Source: Agelas oroides (Eukaryota > Porifera > Demospongiae > Agelasida > Agelasidae). From it: a stretch of 64,000 nucleotides of DNA. Positions 1 through 63,900 of this stretch are shown one piece after another. The notes below the pieces were generated by a model. The model saw nothing but the letters and a program-made list of their open reading frames with translations. It did not search any database and was not told where the DNA came from. The translations under genes were made by a program, and so were the position numbers. The stretch covers positions 3,835,115 through 3,899,114 of the forward strand of contig OX422185.1 of assembly GCA_949130485.1 (NCBI GenBank), read 5' to 3'. How positions within the stretch are numbered: position 1 is the first letter of the stretch; the number at the start of each line of letters is the position of its first letter.

Positions 1-1021
1 CCATATGACTTCTTAAGCAAGTGGCACTCAGTAATATGTGACAATGAGATGTTCTTTTACTTCAGGGCCTGTGATAGCAGTACACATTGCAGCTATACTT
101 AATTTGTGCTGATCCTAGCTTGATAAACAGTTCTGGTAAGTTTTAATCTCCTAATGCCACTACTGACGTCAAAAGGTTTTCTTCTTTGTTGGTTTGTTTT
201 CACTCGGGGTGCAATTTTTATTTTGCTTGTTTGTTTGTTTGTTATTTTTTAAATTTTATTTTTCATTTCTTTTTTATTTATTTGGTGTGTGTGTGTGTGT
301 GTTGGGGGGGGGGGGGGATCATGATGTCTGTGACTGCAGTATGTATACAGTGCTTACTAATTATTAATAACCAACCCAGTGCTGATCCAAGAAATTATTT
401 GCAGCATCGTTCATGATACATTTACCGTCCAGGAGCACCTAGCAGCACTGTACTTACAGCTAAGTTGTGGAAGAGCACTATAACAAAATATCCAGTTAGG
501 TATGCAGAATTAACAGTCGCTGATGGTAATTTACTGCTGCTTATCAAACGTCATTTTCACCTACCAGCAATCACTCACTACATTTGTAAGTTCCAAAACC
601 GTGGGAGTTAAAGTTGATGGATACAAGTTATTAAATTTTGTTAGAGTAATGCACAACTACTCTGAGGTGTTAATGGTTCACAGTTTACAGGTTATCTGAT
701 TGCTTCAAGTTTCTATAGTGTAATTACTTCACTAAGATCCTTTGATGTTAATGGTAGACAGTTTATGAACATTATGCTATAATAATGTGTTTCTAAGGTC
801 TCCTGATGTTTAGGGTATGATGTATAAATACCTTTCAAAGGTCTTTGAGTGGTTCAATGATAGCATAGTACTTGTTGTTTTGTGAAAAGTACATTAGCTA
901 TCACATACAGTCGTGCATGAATTAGTGTAGGTGTGTGATAGTAATCATTAGGTATTTCAGAATGCATCATTTCATGCGAGTCCTTTTTTACTTTAAGCAG
1001 GAGCACGTTGGGCCAAGTACA
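1..1021. other. Upstream region of ANK-TM-1
   Basis: No coding exon could be supported here. The stretch holds a T-rich tract near 190-280, a (GT)n run and a run of about 15 G at 302-317. The last ~130 bases resemble the sequence just upstream of the second ankyrin gene (58230-58362): both share a 'catgaattagtg' block, an acceptor-like pyrimidine/AG site and then the ATG-GGT-AAC start. This suggests the two genes and their promoters came from one duplication. A 5' UTR intron ending near 1000 is possible. Confidence 0.5.
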
Positions 1022-4000
1022 ATGGGTAACGGCTTTGGAAGAATGATAAAGGTATACAGCATGGTGTCTATAGTAGTGTGTGATTAAATTTACAAAAAAT
1101 TATGATGATGAACAACAGCTCAATGCAGCCTTTGACATTATTGATAGCTAAATATTTGTGTTCATTGTATGCAATGCACACTGTAAAAACATATAGGTTA
1201 CTTCAACCATATTTTGGTCATCTCAGTTGCATGCCTGTTGTGTGCGTGACACATTACAAACTTCAAAGGGATGCTTCCTATTTGAATCAAAGCTTAAGTG
1301 TAATTCAGAAGCTTCTCCCTCAGTTAGGATCTTCTTACAGAAAGCCTATAGCTATTTGGTTACATTCCTGGCATTTCGACCACAGTCATGCAACCAGGCA
1401 CTCCTCCAGGGACAGATGTGTAGGATCAAAGAAACACCAACCTCACCAGAAATGCTATAAGCCTTCTGAAAGGAGATACTAATTTAACAAAGGGAGAAGC
1501 TTCTCAACTACACTCTGATTCAGAATGAGATTGGTAGCCTTCCTTGAAGTTTGTAATGTATCACATACACAACAGGCATGCAACTGAGACGACCAAAATA
1601 TGGTTGAAGTAACCTATATGTTTTTACAGTGCAAGAGTGTGATTAAATAGACTATGTATTAAGTGTCCTTGTTTTGGGCATTGTAGCGAAAGAGGGGTTA
1701 TTTGAATGCATGACACATGAACTGGACAATTAGTATTTGGCCACCTATGATGTCTCTCTCCCTGCCAATCCTCATCCCATGTTTTGTGCACATGTCCATA
1801 GCCTTTCGAGAAAAAAAGGAACAGGATACAGTCAGCATTCAATCCCTTGTTTTCTCCCAAAAACGGAGATGTAGCTAATTACACTTTCAATATAGTCTCT
1901 GAGTCAAGAGTTTGTATCAATGATAACTTCTTATCTGTTTTTCTCCCACTTGCTATGTACCGGGTATTGTGAAATGGTGCATTTGTACAACTCAGGAAGT
2001 AAGTTGTCATTATAGTTCGACATAATTATTTGAAAGTACATGGTCAGACTGCTTCTTTTATTGTGTTTTGAAGAAGACAAAAGTGTGTCAAACCTACATA
2101 TAATGAAGAGCACTGAAGTGCTTAACCCTCGGCAAGTAGTATTAAATGCTGGATTTTTTTTGCTTTTTGGCCCACTGTAAGTTCAAAGTTCAAGGTTCAA
2201 AGTTCATTCATCTGTAACACGCCCAGTACGAGCAGACAGAATACAATAGCAAACCAGTATACATGCAGACACATATAATTAGTCATTGTAACAGTCTGCA
2301 CTCTGAGGCTGTCACGTCGAGAGGAAAAACAGAGGATCTGATGAATGGCAATATGAACTGTGGCATGGCCACCACAGACAAGACAGCATTGCTTCCGCCA
2401 TCACCCTGGACCACATACGTAAAAGATGATCCATTGGCCATTCATTCTGTCCAACAAGGAAGGTGGACACAGTAGAACAGTTAAGCAGACTGAAGGGGTC
2501 TTTGTCAATGGCTCTGCCCACTTCCTGGAATTGATAACCTGGTCAGAGTCTTATTTCACACTCTTTCTTGGGACCAATTCAGTCTTGGTGTGCTAAAAAC
2601 TTGTTGCTGGAGCTGCCACCTCCATTGTCACAATTATCCAGAGCTGCCACCTCTTTCGTCTGGCCACTTGGTTGCCGTTGGAAGCGGTTCCCTTGATTTT
2701 TACCAGCTTCAACGCAGACGGACGACAAGAGTACCAGCACTCGTTACCATGCACCCTTGCCCGTTCACCCATAGTGCTTGGGATGGGTAACCACTGGCGC
2801 AAATCAACAAGAACTCCCCTCACAGGCAACTGCGTTCAGGTCGCCATTTTCTATTCACATGAGTTTGTTTACAACGAACAACGAGGTACGAAACTGTGAC
2901 ATTAAAGGAGCCACCGCATGTGACATTAAAGGACATTAAAGGAGCCACCGCATGTGCGCCGAGGGTTAATAAACATGATCAGAGTGGGGACTGTTAGCAT
3001 GGGCATGATCACACCGAATCATTAGGAGGAATAGTACAATGGAATATTATATGCAGCACACTGTATATAAGAAAGGAAATGTTACTTTTATGTACAACAG
3101 TTTTCGTACCTCTTGTCTGCATCATTCAACACATTGGAGTCCTAGTGGCTCCTTTAATGTCGTGGAATATGTACTCTGCCAACAGAATGGCTCAATAATG
3201 CAGACAACAGTACATAGAGCCTTAATACTGCATCCAACTATGTTTTTTGATGACCAATTGTCTCTCTGTTTTTCCACTATATACTGTGCTGTGAAATGGG
3301 GCATTCATTTCTACTCAGCTGTTCTACAGTGTTGATGAACAAGTGAGTGAGAGAGAAAATACAGAGAGCACAGAATGCTAGACATGCGATTCAAACAGAA
3401 CTGTGAGCATGATCATGATCACAATTCATTGTGACGTACAGCAATATAGAATTACTAGCATTTGTGAAAGTCATATACGATTGACGCATTCAATTGCTAC
3501 AAGAAAGATATGCTTCTCACTTGCATATCCTACCTACAACTGACTGACAGATGTAACAGCAATATGGAATTATAGCATTTGTGCAGTAGCTGCAGTATAC
3601 ATAAACCTTAAATTTATGACTGCATCCCTGGCACTTACGTATATTGTCAATCACTTGTCTCTCTGTTTACCCCCTATTACACTGTGAATTGATGTATTCA
3701 CTTCTACTCAGCTGGTAAGTTACTGACATACATGTACATATTTGTATTTGTAATTATACGCATGCATACTGCATTCTATGCATGAGATAGCAATCCCTAT
3801 CTCCAAGTCACCCCAGTGCAGCAGCTGTACTGAGGCCTGGTATTGGCCGAAATGCATCCTGCCCAGTGGGTGACTTTGCATGACACCTAGGCCTTTTTTT
3901 TTTAGGGAGATGTGGTTAATTAATTTTTCATGCAACCATAAAAAGCTAAGCAGAAAATGTCTTTGTGTCTCAAATGCATGTCTGTCATCCTTTCCGGGCA

Positions 4001-7000
4001 CATTGCATGGTACATGACACCAAAATTAATTCATAAATACATTGAGACACATTTCACTGTGAAGAAGCATCAACAAGAGGTTTTCCTCGTAAGAAATCCA
4101 TCACCCCCTACTCAATTACACTGTTCTGCTCTTCAGTGACACTAAGGCACACAATCGACAGTGTAGAGTGTGAAGTCACATACGGTCGATGCGTTCAACT
4201 GCTACAAGATAGATATGCTTCTCGCTTGCATGTCCTACCTACAACTGCATGACTGACAGATTCAAGCAATCTTAGAACAGTGTAGTTGATGTCTTGATTA
4301 TACATGGCAGCTGAAAGTAAAGCATGATTTGGTTAATGTTTCAAAATATTTTCTTCTCTCTACTAGAATATTTGCCTGCGGAATGCAATTAGAGATAGCA
4401 ATCTGGAGAAAGTGAAAAGCTATATTAAGCAAGGAGCTGATATTGACAGCAGAGATGAAAATGGGGTAATTTTACACCGTATGAAAATATCTACTGATAG
4501 TAAAGTAGTACTGTAGATCTTTAGTCTTCTTAGGCCACCACACAACAACTTGTGTGTGTGGGGAGGGGGGTGGAGGCAGGGGAGAACGTGCATGGCAACA
4601 GGACCAGGACTGGAATAGATCGTTGATTTGCCATTTTACTGAAGCATTCCAGAAAGCACCCTGTACTCACTGTTTATTTATACTTTAGGTGGAGTGATTG
4701 AACAATTTTGAAGCTTATTTACTATGAATGTGTCTTTATCCATGGAAATTTTAATGGGACAGTAAGTGTGAAATAGCTTTCACATGAAGTTTCATAGTTT
4801 AATTTTCATGATTTGCGATAGTATGGAGCATAATATGTACTGAATCATACCTACAACTCAACTGACAACCCTCCATGAGTGAGTCACTACAACTACACTT
4901 TGAAATATGATGCTTTGATAAAAGCTGACTCTCTCACAGGTGTTCATTAGTGGTTACTATATCTGCAAGATCATGGTTGCTTGGTAAGTGTGACTATGCT
5001 AGATTAGTACTGCTGATTTGAGCTTGCTATGTTGCTTAGTGAGCCAAAATTAAAAGATTTCTTAATCAGAGATTTCTGAGCTCCAAAACAGTGTAATATG
5101 TACACTGATATATTAAGTTTTAAGGTAAGTCGTTTTTCTCCATTATAATTAAGAACGAACTCCCATGTGCATAGCCACGTTTAGAGATTAGCACAAAATG
5201 ATGATACTAAATTTAATGATCTCTAGCAGTTGTGACCCCTTCACAGATGTTCAGTGGTTACTAACTGCAAGATCCTGGTTGTAAGATGGTCTGGGAAGCT
5301 TCCCCTCTGGTTGTTTTATGCAATTAGCAAAATATACAGTACATAACCACTGTCTCTTAAGCTTGTCTAGCTGCGACCAAGGTAACCACTCATTAAAACG
5401 ACCGATTTGTTATTGCAGCCATTTTTAACTGACTTGTTCAGCATGAAATGCATCTTAAACAATTTGCTGTGGAATATCATTATTTCATGTTTGATTTAGG
5501 CAAACTTTTTTCTCTCTACCAGATGACTCCCTTGCATTTGGTAGCTGAAAGAGGCTGCATTAGAATAGTGAGATACCTAGTCGAGCAAGGAGCCAAGATC
5601 AACATTCGAGATAAAAATGGGGTAAGTGTGACTATGCTAGATTAGTACTGCTGATTTGAGCTTGCTATGTTGCTTAGTGAGCCAAAATTAAAAGATTTCT
5701 TAATCAGAGATTTCTGAGCTCCAAAACAGTGTAATATGTACACTGATATATTAAGTTTTAAGTAAGTCGTTTTTCTCCATTATAATTAAGAACGAACTCC
5801 CATGTGCATAGCCACGTTTAGAGATTATGATGATACAAAATTTAATGATCTCTACCTTCAGATCAGAAAAGATCCAGGGGCATAGGGAGTTTTCAGAAAC
5901 CTCCTCAGAGTGGAACCAAAACTGTTTATAGCAAGAACCACAACTACTTAAGTTTGCAAAACTTAGTTGTTGTGTTTGAGCAGTATCAAACCAGTGCTAC
6001 TCTTCAAACTGATTTGATCAAAATCCACTAGGAGAGCAGGAACCTTCTGCTACCTAGTGGTCAGTGGTATGTGTAGTAAACAGTTGGCTGTTTTATCATA
6101 GGCCATCAAATTGTTGACTTTCTCAATGTTATGTACATACACTTTAGATGAAAACAAAATGCTAGGAGAGGCTATCATCATCTTTTTTCTTTATGTTTCG
6201 ATTTGTTTACAAGTGAAATTACTAAACCTACACTGCTATGTAAGGTGTGGAGTTTACTTTTCTCTTTGGCACAACGAAAAGTCAATAGTTGTGCAATTTG
6301 GCCCACGCATACATAATTATGATTACTCTACAATACTTGTCTGCCAAGAAGTCAATCAGTTTGAACAAAACAACTGGTTTTTCAGCATAAGTTTAGGTAC
6401 GTAGTTCCCACAATGTGATTGTAGGATGACTACGTACAGCTCCATCACAAATAGTAAAATGGAGTCTCTTAGGAAATCAGTTAATCACTTGCTTTCTTTC
6501 TGTCTGCTGTGTCATGTGTTTGTTTCTCTCCATCAGAGGTCTCCCAAAAATCTGGCAGATGAAAAAGATCATCAGCAAATAGCAGCATATCTAGGTATAG
6601 GGTAGCTGCATAATAATGAATTCTCAGGGGTGCAGGACAATCAATTGTTTAGAATTTGTGCAACAAATAAAAGGTGGTTTGCTAGTATCACATTCAGTGC
6701 TGGGAAAATGGTGGCTTTGTGTTTGAGGGATTGAGCAATGGAACTCTGCCACAAACAGTCACCAAAAAACTGTGTTGCTAATCTTAGTGTCCCCCTTAGT
6801 CCATGCATAGTTGTTCTTCCAAATTTCAAATCTTGAGAAGCTGACTAAGAAAGTAAAACACCTGAAACCTAGCCTTCTTCCCAGGCCTTCCCTTTTTGTT
6901 TAGGCACGACACTCAAATAGCTATCTGTTTAGTATTGCAGCTGTTCAGCTTCTGATATAAGAGAAAAATAATTTTTATGCTAATGCATACACATAGTGTA

Positions 7001-9157
7001 CTTGTTACCCAGCTGATGGTACTTCTCTCCAAACTTTTCCAGCATCCCGAAGTCCACCTGTGACTGATGGTGATGAGCCCAGCGCAAGTAAGAAAATTTC
7101 AGGTAACTGTACTTTTTTTTTTTAATTTTCAGTCTTGTAGTCATTTGTACTGTGATGGTAAACAGCTGTATTGTCTGTGCGTCAACTGAGCTTCTGATGT
7201 AAGGGAAAATTTATTTATGCTAGGCATACACAGTGTACTTGGTACCCAAACACACAAAACTGCTGACGATACTTCTCTCCAAACTTTTCAAGCATCCCGA
7301 AGGCCACCTGTGACAGATGGTGATGAGCCACAAGCAAGTAAGCAAATTTCAGGAAACTGTAGTTCTTGAAGTTTTAGTGTTTTAGTCATTTGTACTGCGA
7401 TGGTAAACAGCTGTATTGTCTGTGTGTCACCTACATGCCAAGTGACAACTGAGGTCCATGATAGTGTGATGCCGGTAAGATTACTGAACTTGCCTTGCTT
7501 GTACTCTATCGCAAATTGCAAGACTATTTTATGGTAAAATAATTATTGACAGTATGTGTCACCTACATGCCAAGTGACAACTGAGGTCCATGATAGTGTG
7601 ATGCCGGTAAGATTACTGAACTTGCCTTGCTTGTACTCTATCGCAAATTGCAAGACTATTTTATGGTAAAATAATTATTGAAGCACTGATGCGCTAATAA
7701 ATTGACAACATTGGAGTAGTGATGGTACACAAGTATGCCCTAATGACACTGAGATATGTCTCCATAAGCACTCCATGTAAAAACTTCACATGCAGTTGAA
7801 CTTATTGTTTATAAGCCACAATGAAGCATTATTTGTGTAGCTAAAATAGAAGTTGTCATGGAATTATTGGCACTTCCAGGCCCAAAGGATAATTATTGTA
7901 AATATACAAGGTTTGTGGTGGTGGGAGGGACAAAACTGTGTCGTTTTACTACAGTTGATGAATCTTCAGTGGCTGCTAGGTTTAGGTTTGCCATCATTAT
8001 TCAGGCCACTATAGTCTAGTTGTGTAGCTTTGTGTTGTCACCGGTCGTGAAGTAGGTATATATAGAAAGGATACCATTCAGACCAAGAGAGGTGTGTCTC
8101 TAGGAGCAGGAGACAGGAGTATTGCTCAAGTTACTTTGAGTGACGATGGACTATCATCTTTAACAGATAGTATTCTGGAACACACGTTGACCTTAGGACC
8201 ATAATCGGATGGCATTCTGTGTATGGGTGAGAGAGGCCATTAAAGTCACTGAAGGTGTCAGGGTGCCTGGGTGACTGCAGATGCCTAGTAGAATGAATGA
8301 AGCTTTCCTTACTGTCACATATTGTGGTTAATGTGACTATGAATATGATGTTGACTGAAAATTTGAGTACTATGACTGCAGTAAAGACTTCCAATGATTC
8401 TGACTTTTCTCACAACTACAGATCGTAACTGGAAGGCCATCCTCTTTATCATACTGGTACTGCTCATATTTGGGTGGTGGTTATTTTACGGTGAGAATAA
8501 ACTACAACATAGATTATAGTTTTGGGTAATGAATGCATGTCAGTATTTACTACACAAATGTGTGTAATAATGATTTGTGTGAACACTCCATATACATGTT
8601 GCATAATTATGTATACTAGTTCATGCCTATTGATCTTCTATAGTATCCATTTATAAGTATGTATCGTTTGCCCATAATTCACATTTGGCATACTACCTGC
8701 ATACGTGCAATGTGCATATTATACAATGTCATAACATAACTGCATGTGTGTTGTTACGAGAATAAATCTACATGGGCCAGAGTGAAATATATTATAGTGA
8801 TTCATTTCACTCATGTGCTGTGGTGTAAATTTCTCTCACTTTTAGCTCACGAAATAACTGGCCATATTTCCACTTTGACCAATGCAGTATGTTGTATCTG
8901 TGACTTTGACAGGAGAGGAAAAGGAAGGGGGGGTCAAGTCTATTCCCATACCCTGGCTATTTAATATGTACTTCATCTTCCACCAAAGTTTCAGATCAAG
9001 CTCCTTACAAGACCTGTAGTAAAAGTTTATTTTGTTTTATACACTACTTTTCAATATCACTTATGAACTTCACCATGCAGGTGCTCACACTCCATGGTCA
9101 CTGCCAGGACGCGATAACAGTATGGATTCAGACAGACCTCCTTCAGAAGAACTGTAG
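1022..9157 (+). CDS. Ankyrin-repeat single-pass membrane protein (ANK-TM-1)
   Basis: Eight exons are read by eye: 1022-1051, 4367-4465, 5523-5621, 6537-6594, 7043-7087, 7293-7337, 8422-8490 and 9081-9157, all with GT-AG borders and a continuous frame (about 173 aa). The start MGNGFGRMIK fits an N-myristoylation site (Gly2). Exons 2 and 3 are each exactly 99 bases and each encodes one 33-residue ankyrin repeat (ending DENG and DKNG, with TPLHL at the start of exon 3). Exon 4 is a partial repeat. Exons 5 and 6 are near-identical 45-base copies encoding a Pro/Asp-rich stalk (SRSPPVTDGDEP). Exon 7 encodes one hydrophobic helix (AILFIILVLLIFGWW) and exon 8 a short tail ending PSEEL. From the stalk on, all junctions are phase 1. 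The protein probably binds partners through the ankyrin repeats under the membrane. Intron 1 (3.3 kb) holds two transposons. Undetected extra exons are possible. Paralogue at 58363-63900. Confidence 0.72.
1179..1631. mobile_element. CACTG-ended MITE with ~95-bp terminal inverted repeats
   Basis: The left arm starts CACTGTAAAAAC at 1179 and runs about 95 bases. Its reverse complement ends at 1631 with only a few mismatches. The inner arms also pair (aagcttctccct with agggagaagctt). A 2-bp CA flanks both sides. The termini resemble those of the 1.5 kb element at 25686-27217. CACTG ends with 2-3 bp target duplications are typical of animal EnSpm/CACTA elements. No transposase is encoded, so it is non-autonomous. 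Confidence 0.8.
2126..2965. mobile_element. piggyBac-like non-autonomous element, TTAA target site
   Basis: The ends are CCCTCGGC at 2126 and GCCGAGGG ending at 2965, each directly flanked by TTAA (2122-2125 and 2966-2969). TTAA duplication plus CCC-starting inverted repeats is the piggyBac signature. The 840-bp interior has only short broken reading frames and I could not recognise transposase in any of them. A direct repeat, 'acattaaaggagccaccgcatgtg', occurs twice just inside the right end. It sits in intron 1 of ANK-TM-1. Confidence 0.75.
3160..4270. repeat. Intronic direct repeats
   Basis: Two blocks recur within intron 1. One, beginning 'agtcatatacgattgacgcattcaa', lies at about 3469-3555 and again at 4176-4266. 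The other, running from 'acata..cctta' to 'cttctactcagctgg', lies at about 3210-3333 and 3598-3716. A third copy of the second block is in intron 1 of ANK-TM-2 (about 59118-59232), so the block predates the gene duplication. No exon was recognised in it. Confidence 0.6.
4983..5228. repeat. Direct repeat copy 1 (copy 2 at 5621-5856)
   Basis: About 240 bases starting with the splice-donor sequence ggtaagtgtgactatgctag recur almost unchanged at 5621-5856, directly after the second ankyrin exon. The duplicate begins within one base of the exon/intron boundary, so a donor-like site now lies alone inside the intron without its exon. Confidence 0.8.
6930..7420. repeat. Tandem duplication carrying a 45-base exon
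   Basis: Two units of roughly 250 bases lie in tandem. Each contains 'cttctgat.taa', a 'cacagtgtacttg.tacc' block, the acceptor 'ctccaaactttt', the 45-base stalk exon (7043-7087 and 7293-7337), and the following 'tttgtactg.gatggtaaacagctg' intron sequence. The duplication lengthened the stalk of ANK-TM-1 by 15 residues without changing frame. Confidence 0.8.
7423..7681. repeat. Two-copy tandem repeat, period 132 bp
   Basis: The 127-base block starting tgtgtcacctacatgcc at 7423 recurs at 7555 with no difference seen by eye. Perfect identity indicates a recent duplication (or an assembly artefact). It lies in the intron before the transmembrane exon of ANK-TM-1. Confidence 0.9.
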
Positions 9158-10303
9158 ATTTTGTGTACACTCATCATCACTTTCACGTCATTTCACATAG
9201 GTCCCCATTTACATACACTAGTGGTTATACCAAGGTCCCGTATATTCTAAACGTGTTTTTTCATGCAGGAAACTGATTTAAGGTTGATTTCTCCTTGTGC
9301 TAGCTAGTGATGTTGCCATTCCTGTTTTGAAAATTCTTCTTCCTATAGAAGTTTGAGCACATGATACTATTGTATGACAGTAATACACATTTTGTCTAGA
9401 TAATCAGGATGCCTGTGACTGCAGTACATACTGTAGCAAGCAATTACTATATAAATGCGATAGCCACTTAGTACAAATAATTATTTCATATATGTCTATA
9501 GGAATTTTGTGATGGAGAAATTAAATCTTGCTTTTGAAGTACAGCATGTTTTAGTGCTGTACAGCATGTTTGAATGTACATCATGCTACGTCATACCTTC
9601 ACTTGGTTTACCCCACTTCTTCTGACAATTATGTCACTATGATGTTATTTAACCTGTAGATGTACCCTTATAGTTTCAAGACTTTTAGAAGATCAGATCA
9701 CTGATTCTAAGCCATTTCCAGGATGAGAAAATGAATTTTCCCTGCCATGGTCAAAAGTGTCAAGTTCAAATTCATGTACTATCATTAGTGCATGTAAGGG
9801 ATCATAGCTACACATCAAACACTAAGAACTATAGCTCTTTTTTTTTGGTATGTAGCTGATTTGCTATGATTCCTTACAGTATGATGTGTACAATAACTAG
9901 CAACAGTATCAGCAGTTGAAGAAAGGGTGTGTATGTGGGGTGTGTGGGGGGGGAGGGGAGAGGGGGAACGGGGAGGGGGTAGTAATGGCATTGTAAATTG
10001 AACTGAAGTAAAAAAAAATTATGTGTAAGCTGATACCTTACAACAACGTTATGTGTACCATGATTACAGACATTTTACTGCGAACTCAAACATCACTCAC
10101 TGGATATATCTTGCTAGCTATAGTTACTGATACCATAGTTGATCATGCAGCATCAGTGTGCATTCACAATAAAATGTGCATTTACTGTTTGATTACAGAG
10201 AAGGGGTTACTAACTTAGTCATAGACAGAAAACTAAAATACAGGAGCACGCGTGTGCAGAAACACAATATATAAACACTGCAAAAAGGGCATGGTTAAGG
10301 TAC
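9158..10303. other. Intergenic region with G-rich tract
   Basis: No gene was recognised. A very G-rich stretch at about 9926-9982, with several runs of four to eight G, could form a G-quadruplex on this strand. The rest is AT-rich sequence without clear repeats. Confidence 0.5.
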
Positions 10304-11463
10304 TTGAATGCGGTCAAAAAGTCAAAGAAAATTCTAAAAGGCCAGAATGCACAAGCTGATATTCCTTCACCAGGTTCACAGCCTCCCTCACCAGGTTCGC
10401 AGCCAGGTTCGCAGCCTCCCTCACCAGATCAGCAGCCTCATTTGCAGCCTCCCTCACCGAATCAGCAGCAGCCTCCCTCGACAGATCGACAGCTAATTCC
10501 CTCACCAGGCCCTTTGGTTTCCTACACTTCCTCAGATGAGTCAAATGGTTGTTCAGACCAGCTATTTGGTCCACGATGCTCAACACCATCCAAAGCAGTG
10601 GTATCTATTTCAGCACTCCATGTTTCCCCAATTTGGCACAAACCAGGCATACCTCACAAATCCAGTCTCAAGCCACGCCCCAAAGTCTCTTGTCGCACAC
10701 CAACCTCAACCCTTCCCCCAATCATCAGCAACACTGCCAAGTCACAACATCAACCCCACCTTCAACCTCAAGCCACACCTCCACAAATTGCCACACAAAT
10801 CATGCAGCCAAAAAGCTCCTGTTTCATCATAGGCAAATGAAAACAAAAAAAGGAGAAACGCCTCAAATCATCGTGGCTGACAAACATTGTGCCAAACAGG
10901 ACAATCCCACAACCAAGAAGTGGATCAAGAACTATGGACTCACATGGCGCCACAAGACAAATTCTAGACAGTAGCACCAAGTGGCTCGATGATGACTTGA
11001 TCAATGCAAGCCAGAAAATTCCGGCAAACAATTTGAGCACAAATTTGGTGGGGCAGGTTTCCACACAACTGCGAATGGTTTATGTGGGAACTACACAGTC
11101 GAAACAGAGGAATTTATCCGAATTATGCACAATGGATCAGACCACTGGCTTGTAATTACAACAATTGGAACGAAGCACCCAGAAGTACTTGTCTACGACA
11201 GTCTTTACGCAACAGTTGGAGATAATGTAAAATCTCAAATTGCAACCCTCCTATGCACACAAGACCGTGCAATTCAATTGAAGTTTGTAAACGTTGTGAA
11301 GCAGGCTGGGGGGTTTGACTTTGGCGTTTTTGCAATAGCATACGCCACAACACTTTGCCTGGGTGAAAGCCCTGGAAAATATAGCTTTCATCAAGCACAG
11401 ATGAGGAGCCATCTGAAGCAATGCCTAGAGAACGAACATTTCCCCAACCATCAAAGAACGTAG
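10304..11463 (+). pseudogene. Ulp1/C48-like cysteine protease, decayed copy
   Basis: The 5' half (10304-10840) is an open frame rich in Pro, Ser and Gln, with repeated PPSPGSQ-like units and no recognised fold. Downstream comes a Ulp1-type protease region. WLDDDLINASQ (about 10981-11013) matches the entry motif of the family, NGSDHWLVI (about 11128-11154) carries the catalytic His, VYDSL (about 11192) the Asp, and KQAGGFDFGVFA (about 11300-11333) is the Q..G.DCG.FA motif. The catalytic Cys is replaced by Phe. The first motif and the rest lie in different frames, with at least one more stop or shift between, so this is probably a dead copy. Such domains occur in many-copy families of marine invertebrates, often tied to DNA transposons. 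The source element was not identified. Confidence 0.62.
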
Positions 11464-18424: not shown

Positions 18425-21400
18425 ATGGCTCCAAGGTGGGCTGCAGGTTTGCATCAAGTTGGACTGTACTTTGAAGGCTTTGTCAATGATGCAGCAGCAG
18501 TCTTGGAGGAATACTACAAGGAGACAGTCACATCTTTTGGTGTGCGTAATTCCAGCAGGAGATGTCACTCACAGCTAGAGCACAAGGAGAATGATGAAAC
18601 TCAAGATGGCAGAAAGGTACAGTTGTACATGTAGATTGAATACTAGCCAGTACATATGGTGTTAATTTTTTACAGAAACCTCAGCCCAGAATATACTGGA
18701 GTTACAAACAAGGGAATACTACAGTGGAGTTTGGAAATACACCCTTTATTGTAGGAGACAGCCAGCATCTCCAATGCCAGTATGGTCCTCAGTACTATAA
18801 ATCCAAACCAAAGAAAGGAAAACAATTACGTTTGCAAAGCACACGTAAAATTGGATGCCCTGCACATGTTGTCGTCAAACACTACACTCTATTCCCAGAG
18901 TATGCTATACACCCTGATGATATTGAGGGGAAGAGCAAATACAACCTGCGACTCCTAAAGGAACAAACACTGAAGAAATTGCAGAATGAAATCGAATCTG
19001 GATGCATCAAGCAGACGACAAGATACTGGTTATCTTTGCCAACAGTAGAGGCACATGAGAAAGCACACCCAGTGAAACAGGCTGCAGTTTTCTCACAGAA
19101 GGTTAACCCAGCTGTAGCTCAAATGATAGCTGAGTTAGTTGCAGATGGTATTACTGAAATTGATGATGTGAAAAAGTCACTTCGACATCGCATCAACCAC
19201 TACCTCTGCAAAGATTCCCCACCAGATTGAGCATACTTCCCAACACATGATGACTTGAGGAATCATATATACAGAGCAAAACAAGCTCTACAACATTCAA
19301 AATACGACCAAGAAAACCTCAGACTAAAGGTCCTCAACTGGAAGAAAACTCATCCTGATGCAAACTTCTTCTTCCGTCCACGCTGCATTGACAGTGACTG
19401 CAACAGCACTGCTGCTGAAAGTAAAAAAGAAGGTGAAGTTGATGGCCCTACAGCTAAACAGTCACAGGAAAACTCTTTTCTCTGGATTCACCAGCAAAAA
19501 TGGCAAAAAGACCTAATTTTGAAGTATGGGAACACCATTTCCCTAATTGATGCTACACATAAAACCACAAGATATGAGCTTCCACTGTTCTTTGTGTGCG
19601 TTCGTACCAATGTTGGCTACTCTGTTGTTGCAGAATTTATTCTGGAATCAGAAAGTACAGAAAGCATCTCTGAGGCACTGCATATTCTACATTGCTGGAA
19701 TCCAGAATGGAATCCAAAGTTTTGGATGTGTGATTACTCAGATGCTGAGATATCTGCTCTTGAATGCTGTTTTCCAGACACAATCGTTTACCTCTGTGAC
19801 TTCCATCGTGAACAGGCATGGGAAAGGTGGGTCAAAGATGGGAAACATGGCCTGACATCAGAGGAAGCGGACCAACTCCTGGCTGAGCTGCGGGCTTGTG
19901 CATGGGCACCACCTGGAAAAGAGGGTGAAAATATTGGCATCTGCTACGAAGAATCAGTACGGCACCTCAAACATTCAAAGGTGTGGAAAGATCACCCATG
20001 TGTCCAGCAGTGGTTATCAACAACATGGCTTTCCATATCACAGGTACCTACATGATGTGCATATGAATGTAATTATGTGGCTGGCTTCTTGACCACATAC
20101 CAATTAGCAACCCAGTAGCAATGTAAACATGTTACCATGGAGACAAAAGCTCCATATCTAGTGTTATGTGTTAGAGCACAAGGTTCTATGGGCTCTCCTT
20201 GGGTTTTCTTATAGGTGGACAAAACCCAGGGACATGCATGGTCATTAGTGTAAACCAAATTCTACCTTGATTGTATCCATTCATGTTGCAGAGATGGGCA
20301 CATGCCTATCGTGATTCTGTGTACCATGCTGCCGTCAATACAAACAACGGCATAGAAGCTCAGAATAAGCTCTTCAAGTACAACTTCCTTCCTCGCAACA
20401 AACAGAGGGCAACTGTCTCTGCCATCACAACTCTACTTGTTGAAGACTACTTGCCAACAGCCTATCAAAAGTACTTGCTGCAAAACTATAAACAAACATC
20501 TATGTACCGAACCTACAATGACTTTGTGCCTGATTACCTCCGGGACAGACCCAGAAACATCATTCTGCATTGTCTTGACAGGATGGCAAGAAGCCACAAG
20601 CTCACAGCCAGTAACATTATTGACAATGATCAGGAGAAGGGAATATTTGAAATTATGAAATCATCTGGTGCTAAATACAGAGTCAGCTTTGGCAATGACA
20701 ACCCAGATTCTATGCCCTCATGCACATGTCAAGACTGGACAAATTGGCACATACCGTGTAAACACTTTTTCGCCATCTTCAAGCACAGGTCAGCATGGCA
20801 GTGGAGTAACCTACCACCGAGCTATCTTCACAGCCCATACTTATCAACTGATGTTGAGGCTCTGAAGAAGCATTTTGATGGATCTCCTGTTCTCAATCTG
20901 AATGATGACAACGATGTCCATAATGCTGAACTGATACAACAGTCTACACAAAATCTGCAAGTTAAAGTATGTGTTATAATGTACATGTACATCATTATGA
21001 TTTTGTGTATGTTAAAATTGGGCTGGCTGGAGGTAGTAATTTGTGTGGGCAAACAGTACAAACATTTAATTGTTGGTATTGCCGGTCATGTTCAGGTATG
21101 TCCTTTTACATGTTTGATTGAAAATGCCATCTTTATGATAGTTTGATGATTATTATGACATAAAAATGTTGCTGATAACATGTCTGTATGGTGCTCACCT
21201 TTCACCCCAGGCAAGGTCTGTTAGTGTGGAGAAAGCCGGTCAGAAGGTTCACATTGCGCTCAAAAGACTCGAAACATTGTCATATGTGTGTACAGATGCA
21301 GAAATGTTGATGAACTTGCAGTCATCGATACATGACATCACTGAGATGTTCCAAGAGAAACTTCCTTCTCAGGATGGACTCCTTTTGACAGCTACCCAAA

Positions 21401-29223: not shown

Positions 29224-30240
29224 TCTGCGGTCGATAACTATGCACAGTGGCGGAAGTGGCGTAATGAGAACTGCCCCCAAGAACCAGCCCCTTCCTGTAT
29301 TGAGCTTCTGTCATCGGGAGACACCCGCTTACTCAACAAGTGGCTTTCGCGCTATGCAATGGAGACTCGAGGTGGAAAGGGACTAGTCTATCCACCAGCT
29401 ACAATACACAGTTTGTTGGGTGGTTTGCAGCACCATATGCTGTCACTCAACCCTGCTGCTACCAGGTTTCTTGATAAGAAGAACTCGTTGTTCAAAGAAC
29501 TGCACGGAACTTTGGACAATCTTTTCCGTCGCTTACACGAGGACGGGGTTGGACGGCAAGTGAAGCATGTCATCACAAAGCAAGACGAGGTTCAGTTGTG
29601 GGAGAGTGGGGAACTTGGAACAAAGGATCCCAAGGCCCTCCAGAATGCTGTGTTCTACTACAACGGGAAAAACTTTTGCCTGCGGGGAGGTGTTGAACAC
29701 CGAGAATTGAAGGTAACACAGCTAGAGCGTACATTTGAGCCCAATGGGTACATCTACCACGAGTATGTCTCCAAGAACCGTCCTGGGACTTACCAAAAGT
29801 TGCACCTCCAGAACAAACAGGTGCCTATCTATGCTTGTCCAGATGCTGGAGAACGCTGCCATGTCTTCCTTTTGGATCTATACCTTAAGAAGCTGCCTCG
29901 GGAGGCAATACAGAAAGACGTCTTCTATGTCCGTCCCTGCAAGAAGCTCCTGCTGATCCAAGCGCACCGTGGTACTCAGCTGTACCAATTGGAAAACACA
30001 CCTTAAATAACAAGGTAAAAGTGATGTGTGAGAGAGCAGGGATACAAGGGCACAAAACGAACCACAGTCTGTGGGCTACAGCTGCAACAGAACTTTATCA
30101 AGCTGATGTGCCAGAGAAGCTTATTCAGGAGTGAACTGGTCATCAATCACTGAAGGCTTTGCTGGTGTATGAGCGCACCACTACTCACCAACAGCAGGCT
30201 GTTTCCTCCCTTCTATCCTCCACAAAAAGAGGTCAACCAG
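29224..30240 (+). pseudogene. Crypton-type tyrosine recombinase relic (DUF3504-like)
   Basis: Open from 29224 to the stop before 30007, with an ATG at 29359. The protein has the hallmarks of the Crypton/QRICH1-like recombinase domain: NYAQWRKWRNEN, GGKGLVYPPATIHSLLGGL, KDPKALQNAVFYYNGKNFCLRGG, EHRELKV, and CHVFLLDLYLKKLP near 29858-29895. The C-terminal catalytic part continues in another frame from about 29965 (PWYSAVPIGKHTLNNKVKV, then TNHSLWATAATELY and TGHQSLKALLVYER). The conserved HxxR arginine reads Trp (TGG, probably from CGG), and a TGA precedes TGHQSLK. It would have cut and rejoined DNA through the Tyr in VYERT. This copy is dead. Cryptons lack inverted repeats, so the ends cannot be placed. 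An upstream exon was not found. Confidence 0.78.
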
Positions 30241-34474: not shown

Positions 34475-34649
34475 TGCTAATTGGAGAAATTAGCCTCCCA
34501 AAGTTGCCAAAACTTGCAACATTTGGAACATCTAAGTTGCCAAAAATGACTTCTGAGCACGGCACTCTAGAGCCCTGTTATTGATACAACTGACAGTAAT
34601 TTGATATTACAGTGTCATGAGACAACATTGATCTGTTCTGTATATACAG

Positions 34650-35512
34650 ATAGCCTCCCTAGTGGGAATACTCCTCAGGTTAGGAATGCAGATGATCGTG
34701 GGGACTCCAAAACAAAAGCAACCATAAATCTACTCCTCAATAATGAGTCGAAAGAAGTGAAAGTAGCCACCAAACCACCAACGCCAACTGTTTATGAAAT
34801 GGCTTATGATCGCATGCATGGGCTTGCTGTGATTGTCAGTAACACAAACTTCTCCAAACCTGAGAAAACACGTGACGGTAACCAGAATGACGAAGACAAC
34901 CTGTCTAAAACATTCCAATACTTGGGTTACACTGTTGTGATCTATCAAGATTGTAAGAAAGAAGAGATGGTGGAAATATTTAAAACAATCGCAAAACGTA
35001 CTGAACTTGAAGATCATGACAGCTTTGTCTGCTGCATTCTATCGCATGGCAGAGAAGGGAACATACAAGCTGTTGACGATGAATATGTGGATCTGAAAGA
35101 GATTACTTCACAGATAAAGGATTGCAAAGCTCTCAATGGAAAACCAAAAATGTTCTTCATTCAGGCTTGCCGAGGTGATGAGCATGACCTCGGTACAGTG
35201 AAACATGATGGCATCTGTGAAGAGTCAATGCCAAAGATTCCTAAAGAAGCTGACTTCTTTTTCGGCTATGCTACTCCAAGAGGCTATGCGGCAAGGCTCC
35301 GTCGTAAGAATGGATCATATTATATGAAGGCACTTTGCGAAACCTTCTGCCAATATGCAAAACATGCAAATCTGGTGCACATGCACACCATGATTAACAG
35401 CAAACTTGCAGATGATAAGCACAAATCTGAAAACAAACAGATATCGGTGTATGAAAGTCAACTACGGAAATCTGTTTACTTTTTCGAAGTGCCAGCTAGC
35501 GATCTAGATTGA
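34650..35512 (+). CDS. Caspase (cysteine-aspartate protease), main exon
   Basis: A caspase domain of about 250 residues is encoded on one exon. In order: the start of the large subunit (YDRMHGLAVIVSNTNF, supplying the Arg of the substrate pocket), the catalytic His in CILSHGREGN (codon 35045-35047), the catalytic Cys in FIQACRGDE (codon 35168-35170), then the small-subunit start FFFGYATPRGY, GSYYMKALCETF and a final beta-strand SVYFFEVP. The usual pocket SWR motif reads AARLRR, so substrate choice may differ. The exon is taken to start at 34650 after the acceptor tatatacag (phase 1), because the four upstream candidate exons are all phase 1. An open frame from ATG 34601 is the alternative. 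About 65 residues precede the domain and no CARD, DED or Death fold is visible in them. The 5' exons of the gene are uncertain. Expected role: proteolysis in cell death or inflammation-like signalling. Confidence 0.88.
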
Positions 35513-43949: not shown

Positions 43950-43989
43950 ATGCATCGTATTCTGCTAGTTCAGTTATGCCATTCATTAC

Positions 43990-58029: not shown

Positions 58030-58362
58030 TATACATGAATCCATTGATGGCATTTGCCCTGAAAGTAATTAATGCATGGAAGGAAAATTACTAGAACAAC
58101 TAACAATCATTGATTCAGTATTGCTTATCACTTCTGTCATCCTTACGTACCAGTCCTAGCAATCACTGCATTTGAAAGATAATACACTCAGGAGGGAGGT
58201 TCATAGTAGTTGTTCGGAGGTAGTTACTGCATGTTGTAGTTACAGCATGCAGCTGTATGTTGTACATGAATTAGTGCAAGTGTGTGGAAGTATAAAACTA
58301 TTCTGCGTCATGTTATGTGTGTAATATTTGTTCTACAGCAGAAGCACATTGGGGTAAACACA

Positions 58363-61300
58363 ATGGGTAACAGCAATACAAAGGTATACATGTTTCTAGT
58401 TGCATGTAAATAATTATCATAGTAATGAACAACAGCTCAATCCAGCCTCTGGCAATATTATATACTTGCATGTGAGATTAACACTATAGAGTGGCATTAT
58501 TCTCAATGCATGAGCAATTTTTTGTAATATATAATTGTACATTTCGCTGTTTTCTTCTAAAATTGAGTGCAATAGAAATATGTCATGATGGGTAATTCTG
58601 AATGATAACAGCTAATTTGCATGTTATGAGCTGTAACACCGATACAAGACTTTGGTGCATGTGCTCCTCAATATAGAGTTACAGGTATCTTTTTTTTATC
58701 TGTTTTCATTTGCTACTCATTGTGAAATAGTGCCTTCATCCTACTCAGGAAGTAAGTTGGCAATGAAAGCTAGCATCCACATAGCTATATCAGATGTTTC
58801 AAGGAGGCAATAATGTGTAGAACATCGGACTTGCAATGTAAATATGACACATGAGGGAACTCTAAGCATGAGAATGATCACACATGCAGAACCATTGTGA
58901 CAAAAAGCACAAATAGATGAGCATATAGCTGTTCAGTTTCCTACCTCTTGTCTGCATCATTAACATACTAGAGTCTGCCTGCATGCTTTTGACTACTTTC
59001 ATGTGACAGATAATGAAATTGCCCAATGATGTAGAAAATGGTATGAAACTAATGTGGTCAAAACCTCCCATTTCATTTACAGTGAAGAAATTACCAGCAT
59101 TTGTGCAGTACACTGCGGTACATAAACCTTTGATACAGTGACCGCTTGTGTTGCTTAATAACAATCACTTGTTTCTCTTTTTTTGCCACTACTACTCTTT
59201 GAAATGATGCATTCACTTCTACTCAGCTGGTAATAGTAGTTCTTGTGTATTCACTGAGGATGGTTCAAGAATGAAGGAATGGGATCATGTAATCATAACC
59301 CTGAGTTCACGTGACTAAGAATAGTTGGCAAAATGTTCTTTTAAGGATGCCAGACATGCAACATATACATTCTTCAATTGATTTCTGGCTTACACGTTTA
59401 TAGTTCTTTTATTGACTTCACTCAGAGGATAGAGATCAAGCTTTTTGCTAAATATTTTTTCTCTCCAATAGAGAATTCTCATGCACATTGCCGCTAGACA
59501 AGGAGATCTGAAGTTAATGAAAACTTATGTTGAGCAGGGAGCTGAACTCGAGACCAAAGATGACGATGGGGTAATTACAATGAGGGTAAAATAGTTGATT
59601 TTTTGGCCTTGTTCTCTAGCCACCACACAGCTTTTGGGGTGAGACAAGGAGAACCTGGAACCAAAAGAAAGATCATTAATTTGACTTTGAGTTAACTTTT
59701 TACCTGCACTCTGCAATCACTGTTAAAAACTTGTCTCATTTATATAAAACAACCAGTCTGTTGTACCAATATAATTGGAAGCTGGTTAGTTTCTGCAGTT
59801 TGTCAATTTCTGAATCACATTGGCTAGTACTGTTTTCTCTCTTCAGCAAACTCCTCTCCATGTTGCGGCTAGTCATGGCCATTGCAACATAGTGGAATAC
59901 CTTGTTCAGCAAGGAGCTGATGTCAGCATCAAAGATAATAATGGGGTAAGTGTGACCATGCTCCCAATGAATTATGATTTGAGTTTGAGTTTCATAGCTA
60001 CATACATTCCCAGGCTTCATAATAAAGATCCTATGTTTGCTGTTTGTGTGTCTGTACATGTAAGAGGTTTGTAAACCTTTGCATTATAAGCTCCTTAAAA
60101 GGTTAGTGAATTTCTGCTGTTTTAAGAAGAGATTGCCAGCTTTCAAACTGCAAGCTTCTGGGTTCAATCTGAGGCAGTGCTCCATATAAAATCATGCATT
60201 TTATTCTAACTTCCTCAGAAGTCAGTCAGTATTTTAAAGCTTACCTTTGTATTTCCTTTCTCTCCGCCAGATGACTCCCCTGCATGTGTTAACTGAAAAA
60301 CTGAGGGCCCGTTTTAGTATAGTGAAATACCTTGTTGACAAAGGAGCAGATATCAACACCAAAGATGACCGTGGAGTAAGTACATGAGATTACACTATAC
60401 TGACAATAAATTAGTACTGCTTATGCAAGTTTAAGTTAGCCACTTTATCAGGTAGAAGAAAGGGTACTGCATAAATTATTAGACTGTTTAAATGAGGAGT
60501 TGTTGAACTTCATTTCTGGAGCTTCTGGTGTATAGCTATGAACAGTGGAAGCTATCCGTATTAGTCATCATGGGACCAGCACTTTTTGGCCTACTGTGTG
60601 TTAGGACTGCTTGTCCAAGTTGCAGCAATATGACCTGTAAAACACCTGTCTAAATAAAGAGGTGGTTGCCTCAGTGATCAGTGAATTAATTAGCCGGTAA
60701 AGTTAGTTCTTGAATCACATTCCACTACTGTCTTATTGTTTTCTCTATTGTTTTCTCTATCAGCGGACTCCCCTGCACACTGCAGCTGCAAAAGGCCATG
60801 ACTACACAGTGATATGCCTCATTAAAAATGGAGCTGATATCAGCATCAAAGATAAGCAAGGGGTAAGTGTGATTATAGATATATATATACTTCTGATTAC
60901 TGGTGATTTGAGTTTGAGTTACCTAAACTCCCTATGCACTGAAGTACCTTGACTTCAGTGTTTGTGCTCGTATGTTGGATAGTTGATTGAAAATACATCT
61001 GCTCAACTAATGCTTAAAAGTCAGTCAATTTCTCTATTTGTTAAAAAAAAGAAGAGATTGATGGAAATCTTCTGGTACGTACAAAGCAGATTGCAGCTAG
61101 ATTTGAGGGGCTGACATTGATGGAAATCTTCTGGTACGTACAAAGCAGATTGCAGCTAGATTTGATGGGCTGCTTCATATTCACCATCAATAATTCCTGC
61201 ATTTCAATCTGTACACTTACCTGCCAGAAAGCCAGTCATATTTTTTTGCTTACTTTTGTCTTTCCTTTTTCCATTTGGTTAAACCAAGCAGTTTTTCACC

Positions 61301-63900
61301 ACTCAAGCTCTGAAGTTTAGGTATACCCACAAAGGAATTAGTGCAGCTTAGTCTGTGGAGGATGAGTACAACTTCAAACCCACCATCAAAAAAAGAAATA
61401 TACGAGTCTGTCTGGAAGTCCAACATTATCAATGTCTGCTTGCTATGTTAGAGTGAATCTTTTTTTCTCTATCAGAGGACTCCCTTGGATGTGGCTCTTA
61501 AAAAAGGTCATGGGAAACTAGCGGAAATTCTCCGAGGAGGATGGGATGTAAGTACATGAGACTATATGAAATACTGCTGGCAGTAGATTAGTGCCGATCG
61601 AATGTGATGTAGCCACATTTCCAGGGACCTGCATGAGACAAGGTGCTGTACGTATTGACTTGACTGTTCATGCAATTATAATCACATTCAGCCTGGTACA
61701 CTAAATTGTCCAGACATCAGTCAGCTTCTGTCTACTAAAGAGTATATTACCTTCACAAACTATGAAGCTACAAAAAAATAATGTACAACCTAAACCTTTG
61801 CTTGTAATGTGTTCTGCACATGAAGCACCCACCAGCTCACTTTGACACTTGTTTTGTTCTAGATGGGAGGTCTGCTTAGTTGTCCTGTGTTTTCTAAGTA
61901 CATTCAGACACCATCAGCTCTGAAAAATTTAGTGTTGACAGTTAGTGTGGCTAGCTGCTAACTTGTATGTTTGTGAAACACTTTGAATATGGAATAGTCA
62001 TGTGATATCCTGTTTGAGTGTGATTCAGATATTACAGTTGAATATTTAAAGTCCTATGAACATAGTGCACCCCATTTTCAAATGTAGAAGTGTACCACAG
62101 AATAGAGATTCAGTTACTCTTCTTTTGCACTCTTCTCTGCCCAACTTCTCTACTGCTTGTTCTTCTGACGTTAGATTGTGCACAATTGCATGGTCAGCAG
62201 TAGGCTACGTGATTGCCAGACCAGTAAAAGAAATGGAGATTCAATCTGAGCATTTATTTGCCAAGCTTCACTTTCCATGTGAAGTAACACAGTGTTACAA
62301 ACAGTGCTACGCTTTACTTGCCATGTGAATTAATACCACATTCTGTTACAAACATTTGTCTGTAAACTTGTGAATAGTATTATACATTTCAACATTGGTG
62401 TAAAACAGGGTCCCTTGAACTGGTCACCTCACAGCAATCTTTATCCCCCACTTCTAGGAAGTGGACTACATTCCTGACCTAGGAAAGGAAGAAAAAGCAG
62501 GTACTGTCACAGTTTTTAGACTGAACATGTGTAACATGAATCTAGCAGGTTTCATAGTATGAAAATCAGTACACTACTTTGAAGTTGTTGATATGGCAGA
62601 TCCAGTGCTATACAGGTGGACATAACAGTTATAACATACGTGACACAATCTGACATACCTGTGCATAGTTCCTGGCATCCTTACATGTGCTGGAGAGGCA
62701 GGATAGCAGAGAGTGGGAGAGAGAACTACAAGTGCCTCATGAGGAGTCAGGTTGAGAAAACTTCACATGCAGCTGAACTCACTGTTCATGGGCATGAGCC
62801 ATTATTTGAGTAGAATTTTTTTATGTCAGTTCATTGATTAATGGGAGAACAAAACAACCCGTGAAGCAGCCATTTAATGATAGTCATGACGGCTCTAGTG
62901 AGAGATGAAGTCAGGCTGTAGGCTTTTCACACCGACTTGGCTGTTGCCAGTCTTTGCACAGCAGCCAATGAGATTAATGATGCACAATATGCCCAAACCT
63001 AGCCCTAAAGGTTGTTAATGAGATGCACAGCCTTATGATGCTATTCTTGACACAATTGACATGGGTTACAGTCAGTGAAGGGTTAGACGGAGGCTTAAGA
63101 ATAAATTCATACTTGGCTTGCCGGCTACTTCTGAACTTCTGACTCCAGATTTTGGCTCTTTTACCTACACTTGAACGGTTGATATGATTGTGAATGAGAT
63201 TAACTGCAATAAAAACTTGTAATGATACTGAGCTCTTTGCAGGTCACAACTGGAAGCAACTAGGTGCTATCCTCATTAGTCTGCTGTTGTTGCTTGTAAT
63301 TGGGATTGGATTGTGGTGGATGCTAGACAGTGAGAGTAAGTCACAGCTTACACTAGTTTTGAGTAGTGAGTATATGTCAGTATATACAACACATGCATTT
63401 CTTATTAATTTGTGTGTATATATATTAATATTTATGTTACCAGGTCAGATATTGACCTTGTAGAGTATCCACATTTTATAAATACATGTTACAGCTGACA
63501 GCAGTGTGTTCCCTGTCTTGATATGAGTGAGTATTTAATCTCTCATTACATGGGTCAGAGTGCATGGAATATGATAACTCATTTCTGAATCATTTTGCTC
63601 GTATGCTATAACCGTAGCTCGTGAAATAAGTAACCATAACCATTGTGACCCATATGGAATCTGATGTATATCTGATCTTAACATGATAGTCTATTCCCAT
63701 CCTCTGACTATTTACTTTATCTTCTACCTGAAGCTTCCAACTGATCTTCACAAGACCTGTAGTAAAGTTGGATTTGCGTGCATACACCTCACTGCGTTTC
63801 CACATCACTTACACACTTCACATATGCAGGTATTTACACTCTGTGGTCAACGTCAGAGCATGATGGGAATATAAACAGAGTACCTTCAGAAGAACTGTAA
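58363..63900 (+). CDS. Ankyrin-repeat single-pass membrane protein (ANK-TM-2)
   Basis: Nine exons by eye: 58363-58383, 59472-59570, 59847-59945, 60271-60375, 60764-60862, 61476-61547, 62458-62500, 63243-63335 and 63830-63900 (TAA). The frame is continuous, about 233 aa. It starts MGNSNTK (myristoylation-type Gly2). Exons 2, 3 and 5 are 99 bases and encode one ankyrin repeat each (for example QTPLHVAASHGHCNIVEYL). Exon 4 is 105 bases because of two extra residues, and exon 6 is a partial repeat. A short acidic linker (EVDYIPDLGKEEKA), a membrane helix (LGAILISLLLLLVIGIGLWWML) and a tail ending PSEEL follow. From the linker on, junctions are phase 1. Same plan as ANK-TM-1 with two more repeats, so these are diverged paralogues 49 kb apart in the same orientation. 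Ligand unknown. Confidence 0.78.
61057..61172. repeat. Two-copy tandem repeat, 59-bp period
   Basis: The unit attgatggaaatcttctgg onward occurs at 61057 and 61116 with very few differences, in an intron of ANK-TM-2. Confidence 0.85.

Follow-up and report, generated by a model that had tools for sequence, protein, structure and literature searches.

An MGN-start ankyrin gene pair in the sponge Agelas oroides, with a 3′ half probably derived from a Death-domain receptor gene

Two ankyrin genes of one plan

The stretch of 64,000 nucleotides from the sponge Agelas oroides analysed here, called the window in the following (GenBank assembly GCA_949130485.1, contig OX422185.1, below C3; C3:3835115-3899114), carries two ankyrin genes on its forward strand with a gap of about 49 kb between them. 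All genome searches cover the same assembly of 259,295,671 bases. Gene 1 (1022-9157) comprises eight exons and seven introns, all with GT-AG borders, and its joined frame is open over 173 codons. Gene 2 (58363-63900) is a paralogue with nine exons, eight GT-AG introns and a predicted product of 233 amino acids reading MGNSNTK...PSEEL. In the predicted gene 1 product, MGNGFGRMIK is followed by three ankyrin units (two full, one short) and then by a linker, a single predicted membrane helix and a tail ending in PSEEL. Overall, anchoring of such proteins at both ends is possible, and the plan is best read as the stump of a receptor gene capped with ankyrin repeats.

In both genes the ankyrin exons are in phase 0; the linker after them leads to the helix exon (phase 1-1), and the final exon closes with PSEEL and the stop codon (Table 1). 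The ankyrin parts score 54.1 bits (gene 1) and 131.8 bits (gene 2) with Pfam Ank_2 (cut-off 27.3), and the helix regions of the two genes are related at the DNA level (65.7% over 303 columns, E 1.1e-10). A preliminary description of gene 1 had located its MGN start, ankyrin exons, single membrane helix and PSEEL-stop exactly, and it had rightly named the gene at 58363 as a paralogue sharing both ends, the MGN start as well as the helix with the PSEEL tail. The exon borders of both genes were picked to hold the frame open, and open frames alone are little proof. What speaks against chance is that both copies match in the kind and order of their parts and in exon phases, and that a neutral simulation rarely kept both frames open. 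With the changes per site set from 0.2 down to 0.1, start and frame were kept in 0.024-0.113 of the runs for gene 1 and in 0.010-0.069 for gene 2, which is a rough guide, as the simulation uses substitutions only, ignores splice sites and indels, and concerns frames that had been sought as open exons.

A candidate coding or untranslated exon of gene 1 before position 910 was dropped, since the two genes gave no match to each other there at E up to 0.01. By eye, the introns of gene 1 contain a near-identical duplicated stretch at 4981-5190 and 5622-5830, including a stray splice-donor end. This duplication may mark the site of an ankyrin-exon loss.

Receptor genes related to the helix and tail

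Two far larger genes, at about 4.05-4.06 Mb of C3 and about 8.37 Mb of C7, have a matching helix exon and tail. They were detected by a search with the tail pattern and by reading the surroundings of its matches. Their parts, as inferred from exon order open frame by open frame, are a long Roc-COR-like frame, immunoglobulin (Ig) exons, the helix exon and, after a Sushi exon, a Death exon ending in PSGEL or PSKEL. The Roc-COR frame of the C3 gene spans 779 amino acids and matches COR-A at E 8.8e-8 (32.6 bits, below the cut-off of 35.3) and Roc at E 6.9e-5, also below cut-off; in the corresponding C7 frame a P-loop is seen by eye. The one C7 Ig exon scanned reached 74.2 bits with I-set and the C3 Sushi exon scanned 57.7 bits. 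For the Death exon, the C7 copy scored 22.7 bits with Pfam Death (cut-off 22.6), and the top PDB sequence match of the C3 copy was Fas (E 0.001). A third relative at C3:2.256 Mb combines Ig exons, the helix exon and a Death exon ending in SEEL; no Sushi exon was seen by eye there in 2.7 kb.

One link to these genes lies in the tail. Positions 9098-9170 of gene 1 match C3:4060423-4060495, the end of the Death exon, with 82% identity over 73 nucleotides that extend past the stop codon. In the genome search this was the sole non-self match at E up to 0.1 (E 1.3e-12; local E 9e-16). The gene 2 tail (63867-63932) matches the same Death-exon end with 77% over 71 columns (local E 2.6e-8).

For the helix, the gene 2 protein segment returned four non-self genome matches at E up to 10 (0.0078, 0.0166, 0.0726 and 2.79), and all four lie 780-950 bp upstream of Death exons on the same strand. 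The last of them is insignificant alone and counts by position only. These Death exons were found in a separate search, in which the best 150 of 262 candidates were scored; the genome searches score only the best candidates from a coarse first pass. As DNA, the helix region of gene 2 also matched the C7 and C3 receptor genes in a local comparison of small size (E 1.3e-12 and 1.8e-10). Both genes and the three parents read, the latter by eye, agree in where the helix-exon acceptor stands ahead of an NW motif and in its phase, which is 1.

Traces of other receptor parts are also seen. An intact Ig domain is absent from both genes; present are a remnant of 28 amino acids in a gene 2 intron and a DNA trace in gene 1 (Table 1). 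Measured between the collinear matches 8929-8951 and 9098-9170, the Death-exon stretch of gene 1 is about 300 nucleotides shorter than that of the C3:4.06-Mb gene. The upstream marker of this shortfall, which concerns gene 1 only, is a weak match of 23 nucleotides (E 0.034). Beyond the last codons, tblastn gave no further Death match at E up to 1 in 1-9157 or 57300-64000. No open frame longer than 132 amino acids exists in 1-9157, compared with 779 amino acids for the parent Roc-COR frame, a comparison of frame lengths made with no profile search for Roc-COR.

Because of the tail match, the helix matches in front of Death exons and the Ig traces, PSEEL is most likely what remains of a Death exon that was otherwise largely deleted. 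Since helix, Death stub and Ig trace are common to both paralogues, these changes would predate the duplication. Judged from sequence, we consider it likely that the 3′ half of both genes descends from a receptor gene.

Table 1. Parts of the two ankyrin genes in the window, with the basis of each assignment
Feature	Positions	Strand	Basis or remark
Gene 1, upstream in-frame ATG, frame open to MGN; acceptor-like TTTAAGCAG ends at 1000	974..1021	+	sequence reading
Gene 1, exon 1, MGNGFGRMIK, N-myristoylation-type start	1022..1051	+	frame, start-pattern search, start context
Gene 1, ankyrin exon, 33 codons, phase 0	4367..4465	+	frame, Pfam
Gene 1, ankyrin exon, 33 codons, phase 0	5523..5621	+	frame, Pfam
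Gene 1, short last ankyrin exon	6537..6594	+	pairs best with gene 2 exon 61476-61547, E 0.004
Gene 1, linker exon a	7043..7087	+	frame
Gene 1, linker exon b	7293..7337	+	near copy of linker exon a, 94.6% over 37 nt
Gene 1, intron trace of Ig exon end, collinear with gene 2 trace	7780..7840	+	78.7% over 61 nt to 62757-62813; donor position no longer GT (by eye)
Gene 1, membrane-helix exon, NRNWKAILFIILVLLIFGWWLFY, phase 1-1	8422..8490	+	frame, hydropathy
Gene 1, last exon, ends PSEEL-stop	9081..9157	+	3′ part related to Death-exon end
Gene 2, upstream in-frame ATG, frame open to MGN	58315..58362	+	sequence reading
Gene 2, exon 1, MGNSNTK	58363..58383	+	start-pattern search, frame
Gene 2, ankyrin exon	59472..59570	+	frame
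Gene 2, ankyrin exon, without clear separate gene 1 counterpart	59847..59945	+	frame, gene-versus-gene DNA comparison
Gene 2, ankyrin exon	60271..60375	+	by DNA closest to gene 1 exon 5523-5621
Gene 2, ankyrin exon, without clear separate gene 1 counterpart	60764..60862	+	frame, gene-versus-gene DNA comparison
Gene 2, last ankyrin exon	61476..61547	+	frame
Gene 2, linker exon	62458..62500	+	frame
Gene 2, intron remnant of Ig (I-set) exon end, before helix	62703..62786	+	tblastn of C7 Ig domain, 50% over 28 amino acids, E 1.4e-5 in the window
Gene 2, membrane-helix exon, GHNWKQLGAILISLLLLLVIGIGLWWMLDSE, phase 1-1	63243..63335	+	DNA matches to two receptor genes
Gene 2, last exon, ends PSEEL-stop	63830..63900	+	end related to Death-exon end

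The tail-pattern search, run with up to two mismatches, gave 124 matches (100 forward and 24 reverse; reversed controls 16 and 12). Of these, 100 were listed, at least 53 of them within an array on C20. Thirty were cut as loci, two being the genes of the window, and the relatives at C3:4.06 Mb and C7:8.37 Mb were found among the other 28. The C20 array (695727-698641) is a repeat with mostly 52-base spacing that carries the tail pattern at least 53 times among the matches listed. Several candidates were set aside: the tail-pattern loci at C3:4.26 Mb and C1:18.94 Mb lie within or beside ankyrin exons with no helix exon shown; eight stretches near tail-like matches on C15, C14, C6 and C5 had no helix or ankyrin match at E up to 0.05; and a helix-like match at C3:3.904 Mb (E 0.038) was rejected by eye. 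Receptor-like genes that carry, in this order, Roc-COR, Ig, one helix, Sushi (in two of three) and Death were noted at the loci L033 (7161-9497, with L034), L035/L036 and L056. By eye, the receptor Ig exons are without the first disulfide cysteine, the Sushi cysteines are kept, and the topology of the receptors is puzzling.

Start site, membrane anchors and tail

The preliminary description had proposed anchoring at both ends, by a lipid and by a helix. The part of this claim that concerns the helix agrees with the prediction of a single helix in both proteins, while the lipid anchor rests on the start motif. The start of each protein conforms to the N-myristoylation pattern G-{EDRKHPFYW}-x-x-[STAGCN]-{P} (PROSITE PS00008), and gene 2 has a lysine at position 7. 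In the genome, a 29-base pattern covering the start with its 5′ flank has one match per gene and no other at up to three mismatches; its reversed control has none. The two starts are not independent trials because the 5′ flanks of both genes are related. Beyond MGN, however, the first exons diverge in length and sequence, and the retention of MGN is suggestive. As a yardstick, about 670 human proteins are predicted to be myristoylated, out of about 3,700 Met-Gly starts among about 46,000 proteins, which is roughly 1.5% (figures from the available text of PMC8478909). N-myristoyl anchoring of both proteins appears plausible from the motif, and we see the chances of a double anchor as evenly balanced.

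The best supported alternative is that translation starts further upstream, so that an ordinary single-pass ankyrin protein without N-myristoylation would be held by its C-terminal helix only. Each paralogue has an in-frame ATG exactly 48 nucleotides before MGN (974 and 58315), gene 1 has a further one at 962, and no stop intervenes. The ATGs at 962 and 58315 carry a purine at -3 (A and G, respectively), a moderate context. The combination of A at -3 with G at +4, however, is confined to the MGN ATGs; 974 shows T at -3, and a G at +4 is missing from all three upstream ATGs. In addition, a pyrimidine-rich, acceptor-like stretch with CAG stands by eye between the 48-nucleotide ATG and MGN in both genes, and the upstream ATG may thus be intronic. 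By eye, the 16 upstream codons differ mostly by replacements, which does not decide the matter, as the ankyrin codons too have non-synonymous changes (dN) near the synonymous ones (dS). Taken together, we consider an upstream start rather unlikely, yet serious enough to be kept in mind.

The helices are marked by their hydropathy, with a 19-residue mean of 2.5 in gene 1 and 2.71 in gene 2, compared with 0.69 and 0.56 for the next best segments elsewhere. Neither ILFIILVLLIFGWWLFYGA nor LGAILISLLLLLVIGIGLW contains a proline. After the best 19-residue core, 23 (gene 1) and 29 residues (gene 2) follow, within the limit of about 30 residues used for tail-anchored proteins. The 15 residues past the core hold one and no lysine or arginine, respectively; the whole tails have two and one arginines, and both end in SEEL. 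As the helix exon is in phase 1-1 in both genes, its skipping would preserve the frame. N-myristoylation by N-myristoyltransferase usually implies a cytosolic N-terminus. Given such an N-terminus and a single helix without proline, the tail of 23-29 residues would lie on the opposite side of the membrane.

Could the tail instead be a working signal, with SEEL as a KDEL-type retrieval signal of the endoplasmic reticulum if lumenal, or EEL as a PDZ ligand if cytosolic? Both paralogues have kept the SEEL end while much of the remaining tail diverged, it conforms to the PROSITE PS00014 pattern, and one receptor relative likewise ends in SEEL. The final codons, however, most likely derive from a Death exon, and two relatives end in PSGEL and PSKEL. 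Moreover, mammalian cells retrieve KDEL and variants with H or R, but not ADEL or DDEL, according to the main text of PMC8248988, in which SEEL is not mentioned. This weakens SEEL as a retrieval signal, and a signal function of the tail of either kind seems improbable to us.

Proposed history and comparison with known systems

We propose that a single chimeric ancestor arose when an MGN first exon and ankyrin exons were fused to the 3′ end of a Roc-COR/Ig/helix/Death receptor gene. Before the paralogues split, the Ig exon would have decayed and most of the Death exon would have been lost, the last 20-odd codons being left as the PSEEL tail. Transcription presumed, the product would be a short single-pass protein with cytosolic ankyrin repeats, one C-terminal helix and a Death-less tail of 23-29 residues, and N-myristoylation would probably aid its targeting to the membrane. 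Its likeliest role would be that of a tethered ankyrin adaptor or decoy on the membrane in which the related receptors sit; it would be unable to signal through Death and may pair with them by way of the common helix. Pairing and a decoy role are suggested because the helix is common to the full receptors; for the decoy role as such we would claim no more than a modest chance. As a whole, the chimeric history together with the Death-less adaptor or decoy stands at slightly less than even chances in our judgement.

Several observations weigh against this proposal. The genome search with the gene 2 helix failed to report the gene 1 helix, and that with the gene 1 tail failed to report the gene 2 tail. 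The gene 1 helix and tail protein returned gene 1 alone, and the C7 helix protein and the gene 2 helix DNA returned only themselves. In a local DNA comparison of two parents with gene 1, the tail matched and the helix did not. The gene 1 helix is thus tied to the receptors only via gene 2. In the parents, Roc-COR and Death come to lie on opposite sides of a single helix. With a start at one of the upstream in-frame ATGs, the N-terminal glycine could be lost. The direction could also be the reverse, with an ankyrin gene donating to receptors, which is disfavoured because the Ig and Death remnants are broken. Finally, 85 aligned ankyrin codons give a dN of 0.41 and a dS of 0.40 (NG86), and positions of structural importance, assigned by the ankyrin consensus, evolve only slightly slower: the proportion of non-synonymous differences (pN) is 0.26 in 42 such codons against 0.36 in the other 43, with synonymous proportions (pS) of 0.32 and 0.29.

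By exon, dN and dS are 0.48 and 0.31 for the first ankyrin exons, 0.29 and 0.53 when exon 3 of gene 1 is paired with exon 4 of gene 2, and 0.52 and 0.34 for the last; the sum omits the alternative pairing of gene 1 exon 3 with gene 2 exon 3 (0.46 and 0.90) as well as the helix, linker and tail codons. The ankyrin codons are without net amino-acid constraint, by relaxation or by diversifying change. Both genes might then be decaying leftovers with no selected protein function, to which the near equality of dN and dS, the two gene 2 ankyrin exons apparently missing from gene 1 and the broken Ig and Death parts would correspond. This is in our view improbable, as the frames and the GT-AG borders of 15 of 15 introns are intact, an outcome that is itself improbable under the substitutions-only neutral simulation, although the borders are self-chosen. 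Least probable is the plan of the preliminary description, a purpose-built family in which a lipid and a helix would keep the repeats flat against the membrane: both anchors are predicted and the first ankyrin exon begins 7-10 residues past the start, but the 3′ half resembles a receptor remnant and the linker before the helix (gene 1 exons 5-6, gene 2 exon 7) gives the domain freedom.

Tail-anchored membrane proteins have one helix near the C-terminus and no hydrophobic N-terminus. The two proteins share both features and differ by their additional N-terminal lipid-anchor motif. To judge from the sequence, they resemble a tail-anchored ankyrin adaptor incapable of Death signalling.

The preliminary description knew of no named family with this exact plan, which is in part incorrect. 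Human ANKRD22 is an experimentally N-myristoylated ankyrin membrane protein, and as described in the available text of PMC8478909 its segment is a hairpin kinked by Pro98, with both ends cytosolic and sorting to lipid droplets; mutation or deletion of Pro98 leads to a single-pass protein. Like the proteins of the window, it combines an ankyrin domain with one hydrophobic membrane segment, with myristoylation found experimentally in ANKRD22 and by motif here. In contrast to it, our proteins have no helix proline, no basic C-terminus and a helix near the C-terminus, a distinction drawn from the description of ANKRD22. ANKRD22 is therefore the nearest named plan, from which they depart in two features, the central proline and the basic C-terminus.

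The two genes have in common with the Roc-COR/Ig/helix/(Sushi)/Death genes a related helix exon (shown for gene 2), whose acceptor agrees in place and phase, and a related end of the last exon. Unlike in those receptors, MGN and ankyrin exons replace Roc-COR and Ig, and Death is reduced to its last codons. Hence, by content neither gene belongs to the receptor family, although a common descent of the 3′ end is most likely. Death, Ig and membrane parts also occur mixed in sponge NLR and Ig-TIR receptors, and membrane-bound NLRs have been reported (PMC12909245). Unlike these, the two proteins have no NACHT, LRR or TIR match. An ankyrin-helix-Death-stub gene was not found in the available text of PMC12909245, whose main text lacks the word ankyrin, and our search, mostly confined to the open-access literature, met with no description of this gene plan.

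Between the two ankyrin genes lie an open frame of a caspase (34571-35512; Pfam Peptidase_C14, 174 bits) and one with a Death domain (43969-44469; 29.7 bits, cut-off 22.6). A cluster of ankyrin exons on the same strand at C3:3,910-3,918 kb, just downstream of the window, is a possible source of the 5′ half; a Death exon (C3:3945147-3945410) follows about 27 kb further. In a sponge challenge study, genes containing ankyrin, Ig, Sushi and Death domains were among those altered by microbial molecules (available text of PMC6208332). This would fit an immune setting. The window also contains, on the reverse strand, a stop-free frame of 1208 residues (48892-52518) with repeated NFxxNSA-like units and several hydrophobic stretches as seen by eye, and transposon-like pieces at 29224-30006 (DUF3504, 98.7 bits) and, by eye, at 18640-21146 and 10996-11463 (a transposase with a SWIM-type end and a Ulp1-type protease).

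It is conceivable, as speculation for which we see little probability, that silencers of the receptors arise within the receptor family itself: ankyrin proteins with a myristoyl anchor and the receptor's membrane helix, but no Death domain, would pair with full Roc-COR/Ig/Death receptors and block or retune them, and fast-evolving ankyrin faces would read a variable partner. If the proposed history is true, the terminal 3′ part of a Death receptor gene, its broken exons still traceable, was made into a membrane-anchored ankyrin protein, and the odd tail motif would represent an event dated before the copies split. The pair would then offer a testable case of a receptor-derived decoy in a sponge, and would draw attention to a little-described receptor architecture of Roc-COR, Ig, one helix, Sushi and Death.

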